From IMG/VR virus record IMGVR_UViG_3300004369_000122, positions 1 through 26,620 of that record: DNA of 26,620 nucleotides; one strand, 5' to 3'. Below, piece by piece: positions 1,342 to 25,091 of the stretch; within the stretch, counting starts at the first letter, position 1; each line of letters begins with the position of its first letter. This stretch comes from a virus. Below the pieces are notes generated by a model, which was given only the letters and a program-made list of their open reading frames with translations, did not search any database and was not told the DNA's origin. The position numbers were made by a program, and so were the translations under genes.

Positions 1342-1528
1342 TTCTTACTATCTCTCTAAGAAGCTGTTTGATTTCAGATATTTCTTCCTTCATTGTATTT
1401 ATGTCTTGAAGAGCACTGTTGAATGTACGAGAAAAGTTCTGCTTAACAGGTTTCTCGTTATTAATAATTGCCCCCGTGGATACGTCACGAACTAAATTTT
1501 CATGACCTTCTACTTTTAAGTATTTCAT
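1328..1528 (-). CDS. Small hypothetical protein with C-terminal coiled coil (66 aa)
   Basis: The gene encodes 66 residues starting MKYLKVEGHENLVRD. Small proteins with this KYxKVEGHxxLVRDxxTGAIIN opening occur, to my recollection, in T4-like cyanophages, but I know of no function. The C-terminal third (about residues 39-63, NTMKEEISEIKQLLREIV) has heptad-like spacing of I/L residues with charged positions between, which suggests a short coiled coil. The ATG shares its first base with the stop of the upstream 2692-codon gene (TAATG), a classic sign of translational coupling. The 3' end overlaps the next structural gene by 14 bases. Its place between two large structural proteins suggests a virion, chaperone or assembly role. 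That is inference from position only. Confidence 0.75.
   Translation of the reverse strand: MKYLKVEGHENLVRDVSTGAIINNEKPVKQNFSRTFNSALQDINTMKEEISEIKQLLREIVRNGSS
1396..1403 (-). promoter_or_regulatory. T4-type late promoter motif CATAAATA
   Basis: The minus strand reads CATAAATA, which matches the NATAAATA form of the T4 late promoter recognised by gp55-type sigma factors. It lies inside the 66-codon gene, 55 bases ahead of the ATG at 1341, so it could drive the left-edge structural gene separately. A motif of this length in AT-rich coding sequence can arise by chance. Confidence 0.45.
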
Positions 1529-4500
1529 TAGAATGAAGCAACGGCACGTAGATCCTGAATTTTGGGAACATAAGCAGGATTATCAGTCTTCATAATAACT
1601 TTAATAGCAAATGATGTGAACTCTGGAAGATCTGAGGCACTGAATTGTAACTCTTGATAATCTTCTTGCTTTTCAAACTGACCAGAAATTGAATTTGTTG
1701 GAGTTGCTAGATTGGCAAAATCAGGATTGCCATCTTGATTGAAAGGAATCCAATTAGCATCTTCAAAATTAACAGAGCTAGATGCCTCTCTAATCTTGTA
1801 GAAAATCTTAATATTATCCACATCGGTTAGATTGACTGTAGTTCTTACGTCAATTGATGTGCCAGGATTGTTGATACCAACTTCTTTAGTTACATACTTA
1901 GCAACTGAAGAACTGTTGGAAGCATCTGTCTCGGCAACATAATCTACACCTTGAGTGTAATCCATAGAAGCAACTTCAACAAAGATTGGATCATCGTCTC
2001 CCGTAGAAAGAACTACATCACCAACTCTAAAGATATCTGGTTGCTGATTTGCCGAAACTGATTGGCGAGCATAAACTTCATCGCTATCGATATTGGCGGT
2101 GAAGTTGCTATTGATAGGAGTATACGAATTTTCAATAATTAAAATCTTATCTTCGGCATCCCAAAGAATTACTTTGCCGTTAATTCTATTTGAATAATTT
2201 ACATCAGTATCTTGTGGGTAATAAGCAACAACATTAGATCCTTTACTAAAATTGAAAGGAACGCTTGTAATGGTAGTTAGTGTGATAGCAATTGACTCTA
2301 CATTATTTCCTCCTTCATCATAAAGAAGAAGTGATTCTCCTTGCTGGAATGGAGTTGCTGTTTTTAATCTAATAGTAGCAGATCCGTTTGAATATTGTGT
2401 GATGAAACCTTCTGCTTTTGAAGTGTCTCCAACTAAAGTTCTGTTGACAACTAACTCTCCAGCATTAGATCCACCAACAGCAAGATTGAGCTCGAACAGT
2501 GGCAAGAACTTGAGAATTTGATCTCTCTTTCCATATCTATTTTCATATCCAGTAGAGTTTTCTACCCTGTTAGTTGATGTTTTGACAGTAGCAGTTCTCA
2601 AATCAATTACAGGAGATAGAGCAGGATTTGATGAAGATAGTTTGAACTTGTACTTCAAACTATATGCCAATCCATTTACAACTTGGTTAATTCTAGAAGC
2701 AATAAACTTTTGATTAGTAAAGAAATGCTCTTCATTTAAGAATGTTTTTTCATAATCTTCTGTTGAATATGAAACATAATTTTGGGTATTCGAATCAACA
2801 GGAACAACGTTAGTGGTAAACACAAAAGAATCAATCTTAGTTCCCTCTACTTGGATGTATGGAATCTGAGCATATAGTCTTTCGTATTTTCTATTATATG
2901 TCGCTAAAACTCCATCACCACCACCAATAACACTAGATCCAGCACCGTTTGGACCAATAATATTATAGGTATCAATACCAGAGTTTGAAACTCTATATAA
3001 ACGATTGTTCAAAGTTACAGAAGAGATGCCACCGACATCTTGGCAATTTTTGAAATAAACATAAGAATCTCCTCTATCTTCAAAACCATTATTCTTGTGG
3101 TAAACTTTAATAATGGTATTGTTATTTTTAAATAGAGACGAAGTAGCGTTTGTTGAAGAACGTACACTTGTTTCAAATGGCGAAATATCAAGACGCTCGA
3201 AATCTAAAGTTTCGTTTGTTACTTCGAGTTCTGCTTCATTTTCAATCTTAAAATTGGCACGATACATTACAAATTTAATATCTTCGTACAAGTCTTCTGT
3301 CCAGTTATCGGTGTTTTGTGACTTATAAACAGATCCAAGTGCTGGTTGAGTTGTCACAACATTACTTGTTGAAATTTCAATCTCGCCCAATTGTGATGCC
3401 CACAATTTATATTCAATAGAATCTGTTTCAATAACTAGAGCATACTCGGTATTATTTTGTAGATAAACAGGATGCTTAAAGTTGAATCTAGTTGGGATTG
3501 TTGATTCTGTAACTCCAGCAACATCTGTAGCAATACCCATTCTAACGGCAGGGGTATCAATTTCAATTGTGGATTCTATCACAGCACCACCAGCACCTTG
3601 ACCAACACCCTTAACCACTACTGATGGAGATTCTGTATATCCACGACCAGATAGAGCAATTTCTACGTTGTAGATTTTTCCATCAGAAACAAAAATAGAA
3701 CCAGTAGCAGAAGAACCACCAGGGAGTTGTGGACTTTCAATTGTCATTGTTGCTGTTTCGTAATTAGCACCAACATTGGAAATTCTAAGATCAGAAAGTT
3801 TTCCAGAATCTTTGGCTATAAAAACACCAACAGTTGTATTGTTTGTGTTGTTGTAATTTGTAATAGATGGAATTGTCAGTGGTTCATTAGCAACAAAAGA
3901 CGTACCATTATGGTTGTCTAGAACAAGAGTGTAAACTTGTTCTTTATTTAATTGGAAGCTATCACTAGTATCATCACCAACTCTTACATTGTTGCCATCA
4001 AACACTTTGTAGATTGGACCAGAAGCATTAGAGTTGTATCCAGTAACTAATTCTCCCTTGTATAGAATAATGCTTTCAGATTCTCCAGTTACATATACTC
4101 TTAGGTATGTTTCTGGTGTTAGAGAAATCTGAGTTCCAGGAATAATATTTTTGCCTGGTTTCCCAGCATTGACATCAGTTAGATATGTTCTTAATGGAAT
4201 ATTATTACTTTTCTTGGCGAAAAATAAATCTACACCAGTTGTAAACACACCGCCAGTAAAGTTTTCAATCTTGAATGTTTGGGCAAGTGGATTTGGTTTT
4301 ACTGGGTTATCTGTATTGCTATCTACTAATTGTACTCCCTCATTTGCTTTGAAGAAAGCAACCGATGTAGAAGTGATACTTGGTGGATTACTTGGAAGAT
4401 TTCCTGTGGCATAGAATTTAACTTCGGCGTAAGAATCGACATCACTCTTATTTTCATTTGTGGAACTAGATGTAAAACGAATTGTTTTTTCTCCAGTAGT

Positions 4501-7500
4501 AAATCTTACTTCCTCTTTTCCTTCATCATAGGAAACGGTTTTTACATCACCAGTCCATCTTGTATTTGGTACTGGTGGTAAACCAGAAGGAATTAAAATC
4601 AAACCACTCAAGTTGCCATTAGAATCGGTTACAAGAGGCGATCCGAAAGTGGAGAGGGTATTTGTAGCAACACCAGTGAAACGTGTGTCTGGCGCCGCCC
4701 AGGCATTGATATCACGACCTTCCATGAAGACATACACCTTAGTGTTTGGCTTCATACGGTTAATTACAAATTTAACTGGTGTAGATCTAGCAAAAAATTG
4801 TAAAGACGTTGCTACTTTTTTGCCTCCAACAGTTTTAGTTGACATACCTTTGCCAACTTCATTGTTTTGTGGACTTACGTTTGAAGAACTAGAGATACTA
4901 GCAGATTGTACTGTTGCTTCTACATCTTCACTGTTAATTCCAGCAAACGATTCGATGTTACCGAAAGATTGCTCGGCGCCAACCCAGTTGATAATAAAAG
5001 AATTGTAAATCGATGAATAAGCATCTTCTAGAACATTTGCTTTTGCTAAGAAAATAGAATTCATTTTTGTATTAGAATCTGTAACTAATGGTGCTACAGT
5101 TTGGTCATACCAAGAATCTTGTTGGGGAGAAATTACGCTTTCTCCAACATACTGAATAACGACAAATGGATTTGGATTGATTGTTTTAGTGGCATTTTTG
5201 TTTCCTAGCAATTCTACATTCTCATATGGAAGAGTTACAACGCCATCGTTGATCACATATCCAGAAACAACTCTCTGGTCATTTCTAGTATTGATTTCTT
5301 TTAAACGAAGACTATCTTCTTTTACTTGAGGTCTTAGTACAGATTGTTGTGTATCAATGGCACACTTGTAATCAATTGATTTTAAATTACCTACTTTATG
5401 AGTTTCAAAATTATCTACAAGGAATCCACTCTTGAACTTATCGATACCAACATTATCTTTAATTTGCATGTTCAATGCTTGCTGCTCAAGAATGCTGAGA
5501 GATGTATAGTACTCAAGACGTTCGATACGCTTTTCAAGTTTTCCAATATCTCTCATTGTATATCTCTTATTGTCAACAGGGACAATTCTCACATCTTTGC
5601 TGCTCTTAGTAAAAGCGGGGATGTGGAGATAACAAAGAGCAACAGCATCATCTACTGCTTCTGGTCTAGAAGGATTCAGTGACGAATTGCCAGACTTGAC
5701 AATAAATTCCCCTTGCTTGGTTAAAAACAGTCCATCAATTCTATCCAAATACTGCTTTTCACTAAATGATGCTGTATATGAAAGATTTGAATCTGGAGCA
5801 GGAGTTAAAGTAGGAATACCACCTTCACCAATGAAAGTAATATAATCGGTACTGTCGAATAGAGATACAATTGATTGATCTTGGAATCCAGTAATAGTTG
5901 TATTACTGTCTACTTTTGGTCTGAAATCAATACAATCTCTTAGAGAAATAACTCCATTGATAGTAGAGTTAAATAAAGGAATTTCTTCTGCCGATACGCC
6001 CGCCTGGTGTAAGTAGGAATCAACAGTACAGAAGTCTCCAGCAGAATGTTCAAAGTAATCAAAAGCAATTACTAGTTGACCTGTTGGAGCATCAAATCCA
6101 GGTTTTAAAACAATTCTCGATACATCATAGTAAGTGTCTCTTTGTCCATCGTCAAAATTGTACTTATATGTAACGTCGGTGCCACTTACTAAATTGCCAG
6201 CACTATCTACTGAAGGTGGGTTGGAAGTTGTACCTTCATAAACATATTTTAACTTGAATACATCGGAATATGAATATGTCTTGATTACATCAGAATCGTA
6301 GTCTTGACCTCTTAATGGAATAACACGATCACCAGAAGATACTACAATCAATCTTCTATTTCTAATAGCAGTCTTTAATCTTGGACGAGCTTGCTGAATT
6401 TCTACAGTAGCAGTCAACTTAAGTGTTGGGTAATTTCCGTCGTTAATTGCTCCGAAATAATTTGATGGAAGATTTTTAATTCTAAAAGCACCAGCACTAA
6501 CTTCATTAGCACTAACTATAGATTCTTCTAGTTCAACATATCTAGAATCAATATAAATGACATCTCCATTATTGACTACTGTAGAAGATCCTTTATTGAG
6601 AACAGTGATTAAGAAGTTCTCTTCAGTGAAAGCAACAAATTTTTGAGTTCCAACAGGAAGCTGAGCAGTAAATGTTAAGTTGCCACCGCTGGCAGACATG
6701 TCAGTTACAAAGTCTTTTCTGACATGATACTTAAACTTAGTATCGCTAGTATCATTAATTAGAGATGCTACTTGCTTACTGCCAGTTGGGAATACTAAAG
6801 TGGCAGCAGCATTAGAAATTCTTGGTCTTAGTTTAATAATTGTAGCATTATCTACATTATTTGGTAGAGCATATTCCAAATAAATTCTTGACTTATCAAT
6901 ACCTTCTGGCGAAGTTACGTATTGTACAATACTTTTTACTACGTTGTTTTCAGAATCGGTAAATTGAATAATATCCCCCTGAATGAGAGAACCAGAAAGA
7001 TCGGCGCCAAAACCATTACATTCCAAGAATTTTCTACCCTTTCCTCCAAAGAAAGTAAAATCACTAATTTGTGAATATGTGGCATATGATGTTGATGTTA
7101 AATCAACGTCCGCTGTAAATTTGTAGTTATTGAATGTGGAGCTAAAAGATTTTACATTTTGTGGGGTGTAAGTTAATACAGTATCTTTAAAGAGAACTGG
7201 CGTTACTACTGCTTTATCTGTCTGGGCATCATTCTCTGTGTCAAAAGAAATTGATGGTGGAGATGAATATGTTGTTTGTACTGCCGATCTATTTTCAACA
7301 ACAACTTTAACAATTGCTCCACCATAGTTTTGGATGCTAATTTTTGATTGATCGAAGATAGTACCATTGATCACAATTTGACTTGTGTCTGGATAGCTAC
7401 TACCTCTTTTATTGACAATGAAGTGAGAAATAGTATTTTCCTTAGCAATTTTGATGGCGTTATTCTCTTCGTCAATAATTGTTTCGCCAGGAATAAACTG

Positions 7501-9606
7501 ACCAGATAATGTAGTTACAAATAAAGTTGAAATACCGCTAAAATTATTAGTAGTATCATTTTCAATGACACCGTATGCTTTGCTCTCTTTGCCGTAAATA
7601 TATTTACCGTTAGAGAAAGTTCCTGCTTCAATTTCTCTTTCTACTTTCAAACGAGTAAAGAATACTGGGTTGAAATAAGTAAATCCAAAAGTAGAATTGT
7701 ATGGAGTTGTAGTTCCATTCCTTCCTCTAGAAATAACAATATCAGTGTCTGGGTTAAATCCAGAACCTTTACTTAGAAGACGAATATTTTTTGGTTTTGC
7801 CACACCAACAATCGGTGTAATGCTGTCGTTGTAGTCTACAATATATCCCCAAGGATTTGTAGAAGTCTCCATCTCAGTTTGTTGGAGATAGATAAATCTT
7901 CTGCCGTCTGCTTCGCCGTCATCATATTCCTTGATGAATTTATCCAAAACAGATTTATCGCCAAGCAATGTTAATTCAGCATAAATGGCGTTGGTAGCAG
8001 GATTAACTTCTGGGCGATTTACAAGACCTTTACCAATTACTGTAGCACTTTTACCTTCTGTTACACCAGTACCTCTTTGAGTTACAAACCAAACGGTATC
8101 AGGAAGATCGGCAAAAACAGTTGGTTGGGAGGCAAGAACTGCTATGTAAATTGTTTTAATCGCTTGCTTTAGTTCAAATGATTGTGCTCTTCTACTAATT
8201 GAAGATCTGTAATAATCCGCTGCTTCCAGAGCATTGAAACCAGTAGTGCCATCATTAAAGACACTGTTCAATGTTACTGTTGGGTATCCAGTTAGATCAT
8301 CACCAACAGTATTCAGTGGTACAGTACCATACACATTGGTAATATTAAACTCTGGTAATCCTTTTGTCTTTAGAGTTACGTTTTCTCTTGACAGAGTATC
8401 TCTACCTTTACCAATAACAATAGATTTTGTTTCTTTATTTACAATCTCAAATCCTTTTACATATGCTTTTCCTGAACTTACGCTCAGCATCATTTTCGAA
8501 TCTGCTTCTAGTTCAGTAAATTCGCCAACAAGACCAGTTTCATTGTTAAGTTTAAAAACTCCGCTGTTGTTATTTTTTTGATAGTATTCTCTAATATCGT
8601 AAGTAAAATCTTCTACGACATAATCACCAGACTCATCATAAGTTCTTCTTGCTAAAGTCTCTTCTAGTAAAGTATAATCAGCACTTCTTACTTGTCTTTC
8701 AACTTGACCTTTGTTGATCTGTAAAAGTTGAATAAAATTCTTATCGGTACTTGCCAAATAATCAAATTTGACTAAGTTAAGATTAATTGTTAGTCTATGT
8801 GCTCCAGGAGCAGAAGAATTTGAATACCCTCTAGCATTATCATAAAGTGAAGCATCTTCTTCTGGAGCGATTAGATCTTCTTCAATTGTAAATCCAACTT
8901 TTGCAGATGGTTTGTTGTAATATTTGTCAATAATGAGTAACTGCTTTTCATTTCTTACAAAATATCCATTTACAAAATAGACTCCTTCCTGTACCTCAAC
9001 AGCACCACAAAATCCCATTGCTGGACTTTGTAATGTTTCTGTAATGCCAGTAATTGGATCTGTAGTATTAATGCTGGTTGGCAGTACACTACCATCAGTT
9101 CCTACAACTAACAAAGGTGTGTTGACGCCACCGATAACTTCTAGAGTTTCTCCCTGTCTAAAAGTTTTTTCATTGTTAGCAGCGCCACTGCTTGTGTACT
9201 TGACAAACAAAGTATCTGCTTCAATATCAGATCCATACTCGGCAGCAACAACACGACCAACAACGCCAGAGTTTAATCCTTGTAAATCGGCATCAATCAG
9301 TTGTTTGATGTCGTATTTTTTATAAACAATTTTACCACCTTCACTAACTGCTACTTCTGAAACAGAAGACAGTTTTACATAATCCAAGTTGGTGTTTAAA
9401 CCAACCTCTCCAGGAATTACCTGCTGTCCCTGCTTAAAAAGGAACCTACCATAGCTCTCAATTTGATTCTGGAGAATCGATTGGAGAGAGGTAAGTTCCC
9501 TTGTTTGGATTGAATAACCTGGACGGAAAAGAACTTTATAAAAGTTCTTCTTAGCGTCAAAGTCATCATAGTAAGGAGCTACATTAAGATTGGTCTTCTG
9601 TGGCAT
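1528..9606 (-). CDS. DUF4815-type giant virion structural / tail fibre-like protein (2692 aa)
   Basis: This is a 2692-residue protein. The N-terminal block (NVAPYYDDFDAKKNFYKVLF, then an RELTSLQSILQNQIE helix) marks the DUF4815 family of phage structural proteins. Other family-like landmarks follow in order: LRDCIDFRP near residue 1222; MRDIGKLEKRIERLEYYTSL near 1350, a predicted helical or coiled-coil stretch; a VKFVINRMKPNTKVYVFMEG strand block near 1620; a PLAQTFKIENFTGG block near 1772; and a C-terminus ending PKIQDLRAVASF. At least four GxGY-type beta segments are present (about 611, 728, 1941 and 1983). No signal peptide, membrane segment or enzyme motif is seen. The position after gp8 corresponds to the T4 gp9/gp10 fibre-socket region, so a role as a baseplate-attached fibre or spike is likely but inferred. 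The ribosome binding site GGAG (9611-9614) lies inside a hairpin described separately. The stop overlaps the next ATG. Confidence 0.9.
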   Translation of the reverse strand: MPQKTNLNVAPYYDDFDAKKNFYKVLFRPGYSIQTRELTSLQSILQNQIESYGRFLFKQGQQVIPGEVGLNTNLDYVKLSSVSEVAVSEGGKIVYKKYDIKQLIDADLQGLNSGVVGRVVAAEYGSDIEADTLFVKYTSSGAANNEKTFRQGETLEVIGGVNTPLLVVGTDGSVLPTSINTTDPITGITETLQSPAMGFCGAVEVQEGVYFVNGYFVRNEKQLLIIDKYYNKPSAKVGFTIEEDLIAPEEDASLYDNARGYSNSSAPGAHRLTINLNLVKFDYLASTDKNFIQLLQINKGQVERQVRSADYTLLEETLARRTYDESGDYVVEDFTYDIREYYQKNNNSGVFKLNNETGLVGEFTELEADSKMMLSVSSGKAYVKGFEIVNKETKSIVIGKGRDTLSRENVTLKTKGLPEFNITNVYGTVPLNTVGDDLTGYPTVTLNSVFNDGTTGFNALEAADYYRSSISRRAQSFELKQAIKTIYIAVLASQPTVFADLPDTVWFVTQRGTGVTEGKSATVIGKGLVNRPEVNPATNAIYAELTLLGDKSVLDKFIKEYDDGEADGRRFIYLQQTEMETSTNPWGYIVDYNDSITPIVGVAKPKNIRLLSKGSGFNPDTDIVISRGRNGTTTPYNSTFGFTYFNPVFFTRLKVEREIEAGTFSNGKYIYGKESKAYGVIENDTTNNFSGISTLFVTTLSGQFIPGETIIDEENNAIKIAKENTISHFIVNKRGSSYPDTSQIVINGTIFDQSKISIQNYGGAIVKVVVENRSAVQTTYSSPPSISFDTENDAQTDKAVVTPVLFKDTVLTYTPQNVKSFSSTFNNYKFTADVDLTSTSYATYSQISDFTFFGGKGRKFLECNGFGADLSGSLIQGDIIQFTDSENNVVKSIVQYVTSPEGIDKSRIYLEYALPNNVDNATIIKLRPRISNAAATLVFPTGSKQVASLINDTSDTKFKYHVRKDFVTDMSASGGNLTFTAQLPVGTQKFVAFTEENFLITVLNKGSSTVVNNGDVIYIDSRYVELEESIVSANEVSAGAFRIKNLPSNYFGAINDGNYPTLKLTATVEIQQARPRLKTAIRNRRLIVVSSGDRVIPLRGQDYDSDVIKTYSYSDVFKLKYVYEGTTSNPPSVDSAGNLVSGTDVTYKYNFDDGQRDTYYDVSRIVLKPGFDAPTGQLVIAFDYFEHSAGDFCTVDSYLHQAGVSAEEIPLFNSTINGVISLRDCIDFRPKVDSNTTITGFQDQSIVSLFDSTDYITFIGEGGIPTLTPAPDSNLSYTASFSEKQYLDRIDGLFLTKQGEFIVKSGNSSLNPSRPEAVDDAVALCYLHIPAFTKSSKDVRIVPVDNKRYTMRDIGKLEKRIERLEYYTSLSILEQQALNMQIKDNVGIDKFKSGFLVDNFETHKVGNLKSIDYKCAIDTQQSVLRPQVKEDSLRLKEINTRNDQRVVSGYVINDGVVTLPYENVELLGNKNATKTINPNPFVVIQYVGESVISPQQDSWYDQTVAPLVTDSNTKMNSIFLAKANVLEDAYSSIYNSFIINWVGAEQSFGNIESFAGINSEDVEATVQSASISSSSNVSPQNNEVGKGMSTKTVGGKKVATSLQFFARSTPVKFVINRMKPNTKVYVFMEGRDINAWAAPDTRFTGVATNTLSTFGSPLVTDSNGNLSGLILIPSGLPPVPNTRWTGDVKTVSYDEGKEEVRFTTGEKTIRFTSSSTNENKSDVDSYAEVKFYATGNLPSNPPSITSTSVAFFKANEGVQLVDSNTDNPVKPNPLAQTFKIENFTGGVFTTGVDLFFAKKSNNIPLRTYLTDVNAGKPGKNIIPGTQISLTPETYLRVYVTGESESIILYKGELVTGYNSNASGPIYKVFDGNNVRVGDDTSDSFQLNKEQVYTLVLDNHNGTSFVANEPLTIPSITNYNNTNNTTVGVFIAKDSGKLSDLRISNVGANYETATMTIESPQLPGGSSATGSIFVSDGKIYNVEIALSGRGYTESPSVVVKGVGQGAGGAVIESTIEIDTPAVRMGIATDVAGVTESTIPTRFNFKHPVYLQNNTEYALVIETDSIEYKLWASQLGEIEISTSNVVTTQPALGSVYKSQNTDNWTEDLYEDIKFVMYRANFKIENEAELEVTNETLDFERLDISPFETSVRSSTNATSSLFKNNNTIIKVYHKNNGFEDRGDSYVYFKNCQDVGGISSVTLNNRLYRVSNSGIDTYNIIGPNGAGSSVIGGGDGVLATYNRKYERLYAQIPYIQVEGTKIDSFVFTTNVVPVDSNTQNYVSYSTEDYEKTFLNEEHFFTNQKFIASRINQVVNGLAYSLKYKFKLSSSNPALSPVIDLRTATVKTSTNRVENSTGYENRYGKRDQILKFLPLFELNLAVGGSNAGELVVNRTLVGDTSKAEGFITQYSNGSATIRLKTATPFQQGESLLLYDEGGNNVESIAITLTTITSVPFNFSKGSNVVAYYPQDTDVNYSNRINGKVILWDAEDKILIIENSYTPINSNFTANIDSDEVYARQSVSANQQPDIFRVGDVVLSTGDDDPIFVEVASMDYTQGVDYVAETDASNSSSVAKYVTKEVGINNPGTSIDVRTTVNLTDVDNIKIFYKIREASSSVNFEDANWIPFNQDGNPDFANLATPTNSISGQFEKQEDYQELQFSASDLPEFTSFAIKVIMKTDNPAYVPKIQDLRAVASF

Positions 9607-9608
9607 CG

Positions 9609-9655
9609 TACTCCGCCAAATACACTACTATATCGTTGAAGTATTTAGCGGAGTA
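9609..9655 (-). promoter_or_regulatory. Hairpin sequestering the ribosome binding site of the DUF4815 gene
   Basis: Bases 9609-9623 pair with 9641-9655 over 15 positions. The only non-Watson-Crick pair (9617 with 9647) is a G-U wobble in the minus-strand RNA. The loop is 17 bases. The 3' arm contains GGAG, four bases from the ATG at 9606, so the folded RNA would hide the Shine-Dalgarno sequence. There is no U tract after the 3' arm, so it is not a simple terminator. A CTAAATA late promoter lies in the 5' arm, so transcripts starting there would lack most of that arm and could not form the hairpin. Confidence 0.7.
9642..9649 (-). promoter_or_regulatory. Late promoter variant GCTAAATA
   Basis: The minus strand reads GCTAAATA, which keeps the TAAATA core of the T4 late promoter and matches the ACTAAATA copy ahead of the 165-codon gene. 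It is in the 58-base gap between gp8 and the DUF4815 gene, 36 bases from the ATG. Initiation 6-7 bases downstream of the motif would fall in the loop of the hairpin at 9609-9655. Confidence 0.6.
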
Positions 9656-9664
9656 AAAACCAAA

Positions 9665-11527
9665 TCAGAACTCGATAACTAGTTTGATATCTTCAATCTG
9701 GTCAGCAGCACGAGTGATGAGACGACGGTTCTCAACGTAGATGATTTCACCTGAGTTGTTTTCGATCTCTGGATAACCCAAACCATTCTGGAATTGAATT
9801 CCTTGTAGACTGCCGTTTTCAGTAGTTGAAACATTACCAGATGCTAGAGACAGAGCACCATCAATCGAGTTGGTGCCGTTAGATTCAAATCTTCTTACCT
9901 TACCATTGTTGGTGTGAAGATCTGGAGATTGGATATACTTAAGTACACCGCCACCTCCAGGACCAGGGTTAGAAACATCTAGGGTCCATGAAACTACAGT
10001 ACCATATGCTTTACCGCCGTCTGCTGTATCCTGTGAGATTACCTCGTCAACTTGGTAGTCGGCACTAGCACCACTAACCTTGACAGCATAAACACCGTTT
10101 AGAGTTGGTAGTGTAGCATAAGTGGTTGTACCAGGAACATATGGATCCTTGATAATACCAATTCTACGGAAGTCGTTATCAACAGGGAAGTCTCCAGAAC
10201 CTTCAGCGTAGGTTAGACGAATGTTCGTCATAACACGTTTGGCATTTAGTTCTTGCTCGAAGTTAGAACCATGACCACCTTGAGGAGGAATGATTACTTC
10301 GATTGCTCCAGTAGCAGTAGCACCAACAGTCTGTGAAGCAGATAGACCAGCGTTAGTGTATAGACCATAAGGAGCGCCAGCAACAGTAGCACCAGACACT
10401 AGAGGAACAGTAGCATAGGTGTATCCACTTCCACGAGCAAATACAGTAGCACTTGTAATTGAAGTGGAAGAAACGGTAATTTCAGCAATACCGCCAGTGC
10501 CATCACCAACAATTGGAGCGTAGAAAGTGCCGTTTGGTAAGTTTAGACCAGCATTTTCAACGTATAGAACATCGATGGCATTTGGATCAGCAGTAGCAAG
10601 TGCTTCGGTGGCAGTACGAGTAGAGTTGCCAGGAAGAACAATAGGCATAAAGTCTGTGGAAAGGAAGCGTAATACGTCATCGGTTGGGATGGTGTACATA
10701 TACTTCCAAATGTAACCGCCAGGAGCAGCAGGATCTTCGGTGAAGATACCAGCAGCATAAGTACCTTGACCAGCAGAAGGAGTTGTCTTTGGTTCGTTGG
10801 TTACAGTAGCACCACCAGGAGCGAAATCCTCTCCATTATAGAGGCACTTGAATACTTCATACTGTGAGTTGATTAGATAGAATTTAGCTTCGGCAATATT
10901 GGTAGCGCCAGTAGCTGATGCTTTACCAATCTGACCACCACTACCAGGAGTTGAAGAGTAGTCAGGCTTCCACATGTCAAATACATCGTTAGCAGCTGGA
11001 TCCCAGTTGAAACGACGAATTACTGAACGAGCAAAATCGGTAGTGATTCTTTTAGCAGCAATGATATCGTCATAGATACCATATTTTTCTGTTTGGTTGT
11101 CGAGAGGTACTGGTGGTACATCTTCAGTAGCGTAACGATATACACCAGTTAGTGCTTGAGCTCCAGTGTCGGAGAGACCGTTCCATCCTTTAAGAACGGC
11201 AACACCAGGAGTCCCAGGGGTCGAAGTTGTTGATGGACCAATTTGGTACAATAGGAGAGAATTTTCATAAACTTCTCTAACTACTGCTTTGAAAGTGGCA
11301 TTGGAGTAAGCGGTGCCGACATAAACTTCATCTCCCGCTACGAAAGCGGTATTATTTTGATTGAAGATTTCTACGTAAGCATCCCAACGTTGGGGACGAC
11401 CAACAAAGAAGTACATTCTGGTACGTACATCACCAGCATCCCCACCGTCGTTGGCACCCTCAGACAACGACTCAAGGAATTGGGTGGCATTGAAAATTCT
11501 AAATTTATCTGAGATAATAGCAGCCAT
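9665..11527 (-). CDS. 8: Baseplate wedge subunit gp8 (620 aa)
   Basis: This 620-residue protein starts MAAIISDKFRIFNATQFLES, followed by a YFFVGRPQRWD block near residues 40-50. I recognise that pattern from the protein annotated as baseplate wedge gp8 in T4-like cyanophages. Cyanophage versions are much longer than T4 gp8 (about 334 residues). In T4, gp8 forms dimers in the wedge and contacts gp6, gp7 and gp10. One GxGY-type beta segment (ARGSGYTYATVPLV) lies near residues 361-375. The gene sits directly after the giant gp7-slot protein, exactly as expected from T4 order 6-7-8. Base composition is higher in GC than its neighbours: the line starting at 9961 counts 28 of 60 G+C against 17 of 60 at 15001. 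It has its own perfect late promoters 34-47 bases upstream and a weak purine-rich ribosome binding site (GAGAGA). Confidence 0.82.
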   Translation of the reverse strand: MAAIISDKFRIFNATQFLESLSEGANDGGDAGDVRTRMYFFVGRPQRWDAYVEIFNQNNTAFVAGDEVYVGTAYSNATFKAVVREVYENSLLLYQIGPSTTSTPGTPGVAVLKGWNGLSDTGAQALTGVYRYATEDVPPVPLDNQTEKYGIYDDIIAAKRITTDFARSVIRRFNWDPAANDVFDMWKPDYSSTPGSGGQIGKASATGATNIAEAKFYLINSQYEVFKCLYNGEDFAPGGATVTNEPKTTPSAGQGTYAAGIFTEDPAAPGGYIWKYMYTIPTDDVLRFLSTDFMPIVLPGNSTRTATEALATADPNAIDVLYVENAGLNLPNGTFYAPIVGDGTGGIAEITVSSTSITSATVFARGSGYTYATVPLVSGATVAGAPYGLYTNAGLSASQTVGATATGAIEVIIPPQGGHGSNFEQELNAKRVMTNIRLTYAEGSGDFPVDNDFRRIGIIKDPYVPGTTTYATLPTLNGVYAVKVSGASADYQVDEVISQDTADGGKAYGTVVSWTLDVSNPGPGGGGVLKYIQSPDLHTNNGKVRRFESNGTNSIDGALSLASGNVSTTENGSLQGIQFQNGLGYPEIENNSGEIIYVENRRLITRAADQIEDIKLVIEF

Positions 11528-11560: not shown

Positions 11561-11574
11561 TATTTATATTTATA
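11561..11574 (-). promoter_or_regulatory. Two overlapping perfect T4 late promoters (TATAAATA)
   Basis: The minus strand reads TATAAATATAAATA, which contains two complete TATAAATA motifs offset by six bases (11567-11574 and 11561-11568). The pair overlaps the stop codon of the upstream gene (11570-11572) and lies 34-47 bases ahead of the gp8 ATG. This is the best late promoter in the window and should give gp8 an independent late transcript. Confidence 0.8.
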
Positions 11575-14500
11575 CGATTTGGAAGGGAACTACATCATCG
11601 TTTGTGGTAACTGTTGATAGACCCCTCACAACACTCACTCCAGTAAATGATATTGGCGTTAAACCAGTATAAGAAAGGACATTGCCACTTGCTGTGAATA
11701 AGTATTCAGTTTTTCCAGTTACAGTTGGATCGTTGAAATATTCTGTAGTTGTGACAAATAAAGTACTATTAACAGTTCCACCTGATGTGACTAGAGTAAC
11801 TGGAGTTTGATAGGCGGGAGTAGCAAAATTAAATCTCTCTCCAGATCCTAAGAAAGCAGAGGATCCTCTAAGATCAAAATCACGAATTGTCAATGTAGAG
11901 AAGTATAGATCCATATCGCCAATTGATAAACCTGTGCCAACACCAGGATCGATAAAAGCATTTGTCTGGAACATGTTTAAATTCAATCCAGCATTACCAA
12001 GAGTGTAATCTTCAAATCCTGGTGGAGCATATTGATTTCTGTTGGATACAATAATCGAACTTCCATCTCTATAAATTACTTCATTGTAAGGATCATTCAG
12101 AATAATAACATTGTTATTTCTTTGAACAATTGTATCTTCTAAAACATATTCTTCGATAATAAAATCAACAACAGCACTTCTGTAATCTCTTTCTGTGCTG
12201 GAGGCGTAATCAAAATTGAGACCACCACCAAGAATCATTGTAAATGTAGTCGAGAATGTATCGACATCTTGAACAGATGCCGTAATTTCTCTATTGGCAT
12301 ACATTACAAATGGTTCTGGTGTGTATACGGCAGGGGTAAACTTAATTACTTGGGTGCCAACATTTGCTATAGTATTAATTACAGAAACATATGTGCTTAT
12401 TTCATCAATAGTAGAAATTCTTTCCGAAATTACCGTGGAAACAGACGAAATGTCGGCTGCTGCCACAACTTGTACGGTTGTAACATCATCAGTCTTATTA
12501 ATGTTTGTTGTTACAACATGAGAAGTAGCGGAAACAGTAGCAGCAACGTTGCCAATAGTAATCTTCGTAATATTAGCAGATGTATCTAATTGAATCTGTT
12601 TTTCTTGTGTTAATTGAATATCAGATTCTGTTAACGTAACAATTTGTGATGTTACTGTACCAGTTACCTGAGAAGATGGAGCACTGATTGGTCTTACAGT
12701 AGATACTGTGCTATGAACATCAGTAACTACATGATATGAAGTTGGCGGAATAATAATAATCTGCTCAATTATTTGTGGTTCAAATTCAAGAGGTGCTAAA
12801 ACTTGTGACTCGATAAACTCCTCGGCATCAATTGACTGAATTGATTCAATGTTGCTAATTACTTGGAATGTAACGGTAGACTTTCTAGATGCTGTTTCGG
12901 CAGAAGAAACAGAAACTTCACTGATAATAGTGTTAATACCACCAGAAACAAGAGTGACACTTTCTGGGTAATGTAATACAAGATCTCCAGCATTGTGAGT
13001 TTCATTGAGACTATTTTGATATCCTCTAGTCAAACCGAGGAATCTATCAGATTTCTTGCTGGTATAGTAAATAACTTCTCTACCGATACGTAGTCTGCTT
13101 GGGGTATCTGGGAATCTTGCTGTATTTGGTACATAAGCAATTGTGTCAGCAAGACCCATCGGAGCATCCAAGAATGTTCCAACTCCATTGAGAGACTCTG
13201 TTCTTTCTTGCTTTCTGTATGCTTTGGCAGCAGCAATTTCAATAATTTTGGTAACTTGTGGTGGTTCGACCGTTTTAATTGAAGTGCTAACTTCGAATCC
13301 AGAAATTCCACCAATAACAGTAGTAAGGGCAGAATCGACTCTAATTTCTCCAAAACTTTCGATACGAGTAATTGGAGGTACATTTTGTCTGAGTCTTACA
13401 ATTGTAACCTCGGACATTGTAATGTCACGAATCTCTGGCCAAATATGTGATGTTACTTGTTCGAATGAATTTGTGCCAGCGACTAACCCACCAAGACTGA
13501 TAACAGAGAAAATGCCAGCAGCTTCGCCATCCCCAAACAGAGTAATTTCAGAAGCAAATGTAATTTCTGTAAATAAAGTTGCTGTCGATCCAATTGATAG
13601 TGTTGTTAGACTATCAATCTTACGACTCTCTTCTTTGATTCTCTTAAATCTTCTTGCTACAACAACCTTTGGTGGTTGTGTATATCCACTGCCAGAATCT
13701 GTGATTACAATATCTAAAATTTGACCACCATGAGCAATAACTTCTGCTTTAGCTCCGCCACCATTTCCATCAACTGGAATGAAATGAATTTCTGGTGTGG
13801 TGTAATAACCATAAGCCGTTGGTTGTAGAAGAATGCCTGTTTCTAGATATAAATTAAAGTCTCTCTTGTTCCACTCAACATCAGAAACGTTTAGAGTTGT
13901 AACTTGACCAAAATCATTGACATTAGCAGTGATGCTTAAACCAACACCATCAGTATCTCCTTCGTAATTAGATACTGATGCTTTTGTGTAATAACCATTT
14001 TGTACAAGGTCTCCAACTCTATATGATGTTGTTTTTGCCGAATTTGGAGTTCTTAAAACTTCTCTATAAGCACTTTCACCATCAATTAAAATTTTATCCC
14101 CTGGCAACAAATTGCCAAGCATAGAGAATTTATTGTTCCATGCTTTATTTGCTCCTTCTCCACCATACAACCATGATGGGATGGTTCTCTCTAAAACTCT
14201 ATCTCCATCATCATCTGTCTTATATGAATAAGAAATACTATAATCACCCATAATTTGAAAAACTTTGGGTTCTCTGGTTGTATAAACAACGGTTGGATCG
14301 AATACACCCAAGACATTGATTATGCCATATTTTTGGGTGCCGACAAGTGTGTAGTAATAACTTCCAACAAAACTAGGGTCTAACTGCCATTCAATAGTTC
14401 CAGCATCAGTTGCGTTTGATGACAAATCATTGGTAGTGAGTTGATTATTGCTAAATTCGTTCCAATACTCACCAACATATTCATTAATTGTAATTTCTCC

Positions 14501-23851: not shown

Positions 23852-24244
23852 TTATCTAGCACTCTCTAGGAAGAATTCTACGTTCGATTGTAAGTCGTCA
23901 CGTCCGATTACAACATACGATAGCGAGATATCGTATCCATTATCATCAAAATTAAGATCTACAATTAATTCGGAAACTTTTACCCTGCTCTCATATTGTC
24001 TAAGAACAGTGTAGATCTCATCACGAATCATGGATGCTGTACCATAATCAAGTGGTTCAAACAACAAATCATATAATCCTGTGCCGATATCAGATTTAAA
24101 TAATCTTTCGCCTTTCTTTGTGAGAAGAAGACTTTTAATTGATTGTCTGATATCTGCATTATCTTTTAATACCTGTAAGTCCTCGGTAATTGGATGAGGC
24201 TTAAAGTTCAGATTAAAATCCTTAAAGGTCTGAAATTCTGGCAT
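23852..24244 (-). CDS. 25: Baseplate wedge subunit gp25 (130 aa)
   Basis: This 130-residue protein matches T4 gp25 (132 residues) in length and in the GPW/gp25 family core: the helix IRQSIKSLLLTKKGERLFKS, then DIGTGLYDLLFEP and a second helix. gp25 sits at the junction of wedge and sheath and nucleates sheath assembly; T6SS TssE is related. The usual E-P-R motif in Y-E-P-R is here Y-E-S-R (residues 90-93 region, QYESRVKVSEL), so the Pro is replaced by Ser. The gene starts 27 bases after the 63-codon gene. A late promoter GATAAATA lies in the gap, and a small hairpin spans the promoter and leader. No clear Shine-Dalgarno sequence is present. It is the first gene of the wedge operon 25-6-(7)-8. 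Confidence 0.93.
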   Translation of the reverse strand: MPEFQTFKDFNLNFKPHPITEDLQVLKDNADIRQSIKSLLLTKKGERLFKSDIGTGLYDLLFEPLDYGTASMIRDEIYTVLRQYESRVKVSELIVDLNFDDNGYDISLSYVVIGRDDLQSNVEFFLESAR

Positions 24245-24261
24245 TAGAGATAGTTTTTAAC

Positions 24262-24269
24262 TATTTATC
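24262..24269 (-). promoter_or_regulatory. T4-type late promoter GATAAATA ahead of gp25
   Basis: The minus strand reads GATAAATA directly after the stop codon of the 63-codon gene and 17 bases before the gp25 ATG. The match to NATAAATA and the location in the only gap of this gene run make it a likely late promoter for the wedge operon. Confidence 0.7.
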
Positions 24270-24270
24270 T

Positions 24271-24462
24271 CTATTGGTGCCACCTCTCGACATAATCATC
24301 AAACCCGCCTGCTCCTCCACAAGGTCTAGACATTCTATCTTCTGGTGGTGCTGATTTTGCTTTATTTAATTTTCTCAACCATTTTTCGGAAGCATATTCT
24401 GTAATTAGTGTCATTCCTGATTGAATAAAGTTTTTACCCTTGTCCACTGGTGAGTTTGCCAT
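24271..24462 (-). CDS. Small hypothetical protein (63 aa)
   Basis: The gene encodes 63 residues (MANSPVDKGKNFIQSG ... PCGGAGGFDDYVERWHQ). I know similar short proteins beside gp25 in T4-like cyanophages but no function. The N-terminal half looks helical and amphipathic; the C-terminal part has a Pro/Gly-rich turn with one Cys and an acidic-aromatic tail. The ATG at 24462 has a good ribosome binding site (GAGG, seven bases upstream) and overlaps the 165-codon gene by 29 bases. Its position between small accessory genes and gp25 suggests a baseplate-related or assembly role, which is inference. Confidence 0.75.
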   Translation of the reverse strand: MANSPVDKGKNFIQSGMTLITEYASEKWLRKLNKAKSAPPEDRMSRPCGGAGGFDDYVERWHQ

Positions 24463-25062: not shown

Positions 25063-25091
25063 ATTATACCATAATTACCCACGACTGCCAA
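25063..25091 (-). promoter_or_regulatory. Sigma-70-like promoter (TTGGCA-N17-TATAAT)
   Basis: On the minus strand TTGGCA (25086-25091) is followed by exactly 17 bases and then a perfect TATAAT (25063-25068). This is close to the bacterial housekeeping consensus with ideal spacing. It lies across the 3' end of the PAAR-like gene, about 22 bases ahead of the 48-codon gene's ATG, so transcription would start near 25056. It suggests early, host-polymerase transcription of the 48-codon gene inside an otherwise late region. Confidence 0.7.

Follow-up and report, generated by a model that had tools for sequence, protein, structure and literature searches.

Hairpins at late promoters of T4-type phages

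Hairpins of this kind precede genes e, soc, 49, I-TevI and segB of phage T4 and mobE of phage Aeh1, where a stem sequesters the ribosome binding site (RBS) and is escaped by late transcripts (PMC3014915, PMC2988022). In T4-type phages related to T4 the 5' strand of the e leader retains a late promoter, and the use of this logic for gene e and other T4 genes, on which the original prediction for the locus described here drew, is documented (PMC3014915, PMC2988022). Cyanophages are named only as lacking gene e in the relevant passage of a 2010 review. Their late promoters follow the consensus NATAAATA (PMC2984593). No literature on such hairpins at the DUF4815 gene was found in a search whose coverage was incomplete.

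The gp8-DUF4815 junction

The DNA analysed, called the window below, is a 26.6-kb IMG/VR fragment (26,620 nucleotides). It harbors on the minus strand the gp8 gene for a baseplate wedge protein of 620 amino acids (9665..11527, Pfam Phage-Gp8, phrog_438) and downstream of it a giant structural gene of 2692 codons (1528..9606, minus strand, PF16075, phrog_358), the DUF4815 gene, which is the proposed target of the hairpin. The gap between them (9607-9664) is 58 nt long and reads, in the mRNA sense, UGA-UUUGGUUUU-UACUCCGCUAAAUAC-loop of 17 nt-GUAUUUGGCGGAGUA-CG-AUG. The hairpin, also on the minus strand, has 15 pairs including one U-G, with the 5' arm at 9655-9641 (mRNA TACTCCGCTAAATAC), the 17-nt loop at 9640-9624 and the 3' arm at 9623-9609 (mRNA GTATTTGGCGGAGTA). 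A gp55-type late promoter core, CTAAATA (9648-9642, minus strand), lies within the 5' arm and is kept in 41 of 41 aligned gaps, and the Shine-Dalgarno sequence GGAG (9614-9611, minus strand) lies within the 3' arm, at a distance of 4 nt from the ATG at 9606. The late transcript would be expected to have its 5' end near 9635, in the loop.

The original prediction had the sequence and coordinates of this 15-bp stem with one wobble right and also placed both motifs correctly. It further took the wobble as a sign of an RNA function; the U-G pair is present, but this argument is weak because the G belongs to the conserved TGGCGGAG block. A known RNA family was rejected, as no Rfam family matched at gathering score in the window.

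Predicted folding of the start region

The 73-nt start region of the DUF4815 gene folds with a z-score of -6.0, and none of 200 shuffled sequences was equally stable. Stability alone is not rare, with 31 of 13,282 windows of 58 nt in the contig folding as well, so it is the position over the start site that is distinctive. When the opening cost is computed for unpairing the 17 nt between positions -14 and +3, the DUF4815 gene ranks at the top of ten genes of the window, the other nine requiring 3.0-10.2 kcal/mol. The proposed switch, in which read-through RNA is occluded and late RNA is open, holds in models folded with and without the 5' arm, the predicted cost being 23.9 kcal/mol in read-through RNA and 7.3 kcal/mol in RNA from the late promoter (7.1-7.9 kcal/mol for every start 1-15 nt past TAAATA). 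Shuffling of the 5' part with retention of the promoter core did not match this effect in any of 1000 trials. The same pipeline gave 15.5 kcal/mol for the long RNA and 3.9 kcal/mol for the late RNA of T4 gene e, which served as control. Like gene e, the DUF4815 gene has its Shine-Dalgarno/AUG region in a stable helix with a late promoter in the 5' strand, and its late transcript is predicted to be free of the structure.

Occurrence in related phages

Five IMG/VR scans yielded 197 distinct gp8-DUF4815 junctions, which reduce to 168 unique gaps; TAAATA occurs in 154 of these. At least four bases of the promoter core are paired downstream in 126 of these 154 gaps, and the pairing extends to the start region in 100 of them; the structure is thus kept in many promoter-bearing relatives, another gene e-type property. 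Across the gaps with a promoter, the median opening cost is 10.0 kcal/mol for read-through RNA and 6.0 kcal/mol for late RNA. The loop length varies among relatives, some stems have bulges, and the base of the stem lies 1-12 nt past the gp8 stop codon, most commonly 8-9 nt. A mobile or dispersed element was rejected: among the matches listed when the promoter-arm pattern was searched anywhere in IMG/VR, 113 of 119 are at this junction and the others are chance matches in other sequence.

Homologous gaps with broken pairing had been named in advance as evidence against the model. Pairing is found in many relatives but not in all. Fourteen unique gaps of 30-47 nt contain neither the promoter nor such a hairpin and have a start-region cost of 1.6-6.3 kcal/mol, and the RBS hairpin is also absent from the S-PM2-like clade (L025, L048, L051, L271 and others). 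Since pairing is absent in part of the family, the hairpin is widespread, not universal. In the S-PM2-like and L012/L015-type gaps a small palindrome contains or adjoins the late promoter and leaves the RBS free. In the S-PM2-like gaps of L051, L271 and L275 this is the perfect palindrome CCTAACC-TCCTAAATAA-GGTTAGG, with the late promoter in the loop and the RBS uncovered.

The aligned arms are paired in 87% of the cells when in register and in 28-51% when slid, while shuffling letters among sequences leaves 86.5% paired. The original prediction called for a check on compensatory changes in homologous gaps. Some variants preserve the pairing by a different route, for example GGCGATAGT with ACTACGC in L064. 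Formal covariation does not reach significance: 126 of 500 shuffles score as high, both arms being under constraint in any case, the one by the promoter and the other by the Shine-Dalgarno sequence. RNAalifold found no consensus structure on the MAFFT alignment, in which the inner stem is misaligned. Formal covariation was therefore dropped as proof of the hairpin; because the arms are conserved in sequence, selection for pairing cannot be demonstrated from this alignment. At the first T of the promoter the U-G pair is kept in 85 of 87 folds, and the perfect complement TATTTA occurs in the 3' arm of none of the 87 gaps. Because TATTTA in that arm would place TAAATA on the other strand, avoidance of an antisense late promoter is one possible reason for its absence.

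Apparent exchange of hairpin and terminator

About half of the promoter-bearing gaps, those 92-104 nt in length, possess an intrinsic terminator of the CCCCCGAGAAAUCGGGGG-UUUUUUUU type ahead of the promoter; there UUAUCUCUA replaces ACUCCGC upstream of the promoter. Occlusion is weaker in these gaps. The median relief in opening cost is 2.75 kcal/mol with a terminator and 8.6 kcal/mol without, and the Shine-Dalgarno heptamer is paired with the 5' arm at a mean probability of 0.47 and 0.84, respectively. The gp8 tree shows 16 changes of terminator state. Among independent pairs on supported branches, hairpin strength goes opposite to the terminator in about 6 and the same way in less than 1, with a median p of about 0.03-0.06 depending on the threshold, which is borderline once phylogeny is counted. 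The tendency of terminators and strong hairpins to substitute for one another along this tree is thus suggestive, not decisive. The cultured phages Sf-CH1b, S-B43, S-WAM2 and S-RSM4 are all of the terminator type with the weaker hairpin form. Tentatively, and with rather more doubt than confidence, we suggest that cyanophages have a general design of insulated late promoters, in which late promoters either sit within RBS-hiding hairpins or are coupled to intrinsic terminators, the two insulators being evolutionarily interchangeable at one gene.

Insulation or timing

The element is real and probably functional. We consider it likely that it acts in cis as an RNA switch whose state depends on where the transcript begins, and that its main effect is probably insulation. 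RNA reading through from gp8 or from further upstream would carry both arms and fold, hiding the Shine-Dalgarno sequence and start region of the DUF4815 gene, whereas RNA from the late promoter within the 5' arm, if this promoter is used, would begin in the loop without that arm and would be translated. DUF4815 output would then be set by the gene's own late promoter, whatever early or late read-through arrives, and relatives would achieve the same insulation by a terminator, a hairpin or a mix of both.

Candidate sources of read-through lie upstream on the minus strand, so that membership of an early or middle polycistronic RNA can be read both ways: a sigma-70-like promoter, TTGGCA-17-TATAAT with an extended -10 (25063..25091, 11 of 12, the best of the region), is a candidate early source, but a late-promoter-like site, TATAAATATAAATA (11561..11572), also precedes gp8 and is a likely late source. 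The sigma-70-like site is the best in 15.7 kb and is followed by a GAGG-ATG leader that is absent from the list of open reading frames of at least 60 amino acids. In the opening-cost scan of the window, the starts of gp8, gp6 and the YHYH gene come out as open. Together with the late-promoter-like site before gp8, these open starts suggest that late read-through would be silenced as well and, taken with the terminator exchange, they favor insulation.

The original prediction saw the hairpin as a timer for the expression of the giant protein. In its strict T4-style form, the hairpin would stop early and middle read-through RNA from making this protein too soon and the late insulation would be a by-product. 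The T4 genes of this type do sit on early or middle polycistronic RNAs (PMC2988022), the candidate sigma-70-like promoter (25091-25063) is a strong one, on the same strand and upstream with no convincing terminator seen in between, and ahead of gp25 Sf-CH1b carries numerous small uncharacterised genes in the same orientation, which are probably early. Yet early RNA would first reach gp6, the YHYH gene and gp8, all of which have open starts, and gp8 has its own putative late promoter, so that late read-through would be silenced too. Timing may still play a part, but as stated it is unsupported, because other late genes of the operon have open start sites and the exchange with terminators fits insulation better; we regard it as a less probable reading than insulation. 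Translational coupling, by which ribosomes finishing gp8 would open the hairpin and translate read-through RNA in step with gp8, appears unlikely. The base of the stem does lie close to a terminating ribosome, mostly 8-9 nt (1-12 nt) after the gp8 stop in relatives, but with 8-9 nt in between, such a ribosome would touch no more than the base of a 15-bp stem, the terminator-bearing gaps of 92-104 nt would not couple, and the internal promoter would be redundant.

It is equally improbable that the pairing is a functionless by-product of a late promoter and a Shine-Dalgarno sequence that are partly complementary by chance. This would agree with arms constrained for other reasons and with the non-significant covariation, but the stem exceeds both motifs: ACTCCGC upstream of the promoter, which is in no known late promoter, pairs with the Shine-Dalgarno sequence and is lost where a terminator is present. 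The shuffling result (0 of 1000) and the 87% of cells paired in register, as against 28-51% when slid, also speak against it. We likewise give little weight to a role of the inverted repeat as DNA, where it would be an operator or form a cruciform at the late promoter, or to its serving gp8 mRNA as a hairpin for processing or for the 3' end. The small palindromes that S-PM2-like and L012-like relatives keep around a late promoter with an uncovered RBS would suit such roles; however, the conserved position of the T-G mismatch, the variable loop length and the bulged stems are unlike an operator, and the 3' arm ends on the Shine-Dalgarno sequence in most promoter-bearing gaps. The hairpin was also rejected as an intrinsic terminator, since CGATGCC and no U-tract follows the stem, and it is absent from the output of the terminator scan. 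The RNA switch with mainly insulating effect therefore remains our preferred reading.

Other late promoters in hairpins

A second cyanophage gene, that of phrog_8438, has the same design in an even clearer form: its 3' arm contains GGGAGG, CTAAATA lies in the loop or arm, and the median relief is about 10 kcal/mol over 22 unique contexts. The gene encodes 381 amino acids of unknown function and is found in Sf-CH1b (gene at record 154392) and in L559-L592. Before its ATG, ACCTCCC-CTAAATA-GGGAGGT (L477:9430-9491 in Sf-CH1b) combines late promoter and Shine-Dalgarno sequence in one hairpin, and altered stems are kept in relatives. Some variants resemble terminators and are then followed by T-runs.

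A rule for all late promoters was rejected, since the enrichment of late promoters in hairpins over the whole Sf-CH1b genome is no more than mild (8 genes with a relief of at least 3, against 4.4 expected). The DUF4815 hairpin of Sf-CH1b itself is weak. The gp25 start region has the second-highest opening cost in the window; there (24245-24273, minus strand) the stem in TAGAGATA-AATAGTTAAAAAC-TATCTCTA-ATG touches the ATG and has GATAAATA across its 5' arm. This hairpin is short and variable in relatives and was rejected as a conserved second case, as was that of terL, which is found in a few relatives only. At terL of Sf-CH1b (L476, about 24190-24240) and of L513, the late promoter lies in the stem ATAAATACTAGT / ACTAGTGTTTTAT just before the start. 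The gp13-like head-tail adaptor gene of Sf-CH1b (L476, about 14100-14157, record 109057) has AATCCCTTC-late promoter-GAAGGGATTTTTT, with the promoter in the loop of an apparent intrinsic terminator.

Comparison with known systems

The DUF4815 hairpin belongs to the same kind as those of T4 gene e, soc and I-TevI. If the proposed mechanism is true, a mode of control that in T4 is associated chiefly with lysozyme, soc and homing endonucleases would also apply to structural genes of abundant ocean cyanophages. It makes a testable prediction as to which transcripts would make one of the largest virion proteins, and the apparent exchange of hairpin and terminator provides natural replicates for asking whether the purpose is insulation or timing.

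With gene e the locus shares the Shine-Dalgarno sequence in the 3' arm, the late promoter in the 5' strand and, by prediction, a late RNA without the 5' arm, and the computed costs drop similarly (15.5 to 3.9 kcal/mol for gene e, 23.9 to 7.3 kcal/mol in the DUF4815 gap). Gene e differs in being part of an early/middle transcription unit and in that its effect was measured as 100-fold (PMC3014915), whereas the DUF4815 hairpin is known from predictions; the gene targeted here is a giant structural one that follows another late gene. The hairpins of soc, 49, I-TevI, segB and Aeh1 mobE likewise have an RBS-sequestering stem that late transcripts escape, but these are small or homing-endonuclease genes that lie within early/middle RNAs, and their phages infect enterobacteria and Aeromonas. 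The start-region stem of T4 gene 25 is conserved and at the start of a baseplate gene (PMC3014915, Figure 5B), and the gp25 gene of the window has a promoter-containing stem at its ATG; relative to the DUF4815 hairpin, however, both gene and layout are different, and in cyanophages the gp25 stem is short and differs from one relative to another. Among cyanophages, the inverted repeat in the psbA 5'-UTR of S-PM2d is also a hairpin in a leader, close to a motif that includes a late gp55 site, but its proposed part is in light-dependent regulation of psbA mRNA and it is not described as hiding the RBS from read-through (PMC5931967).
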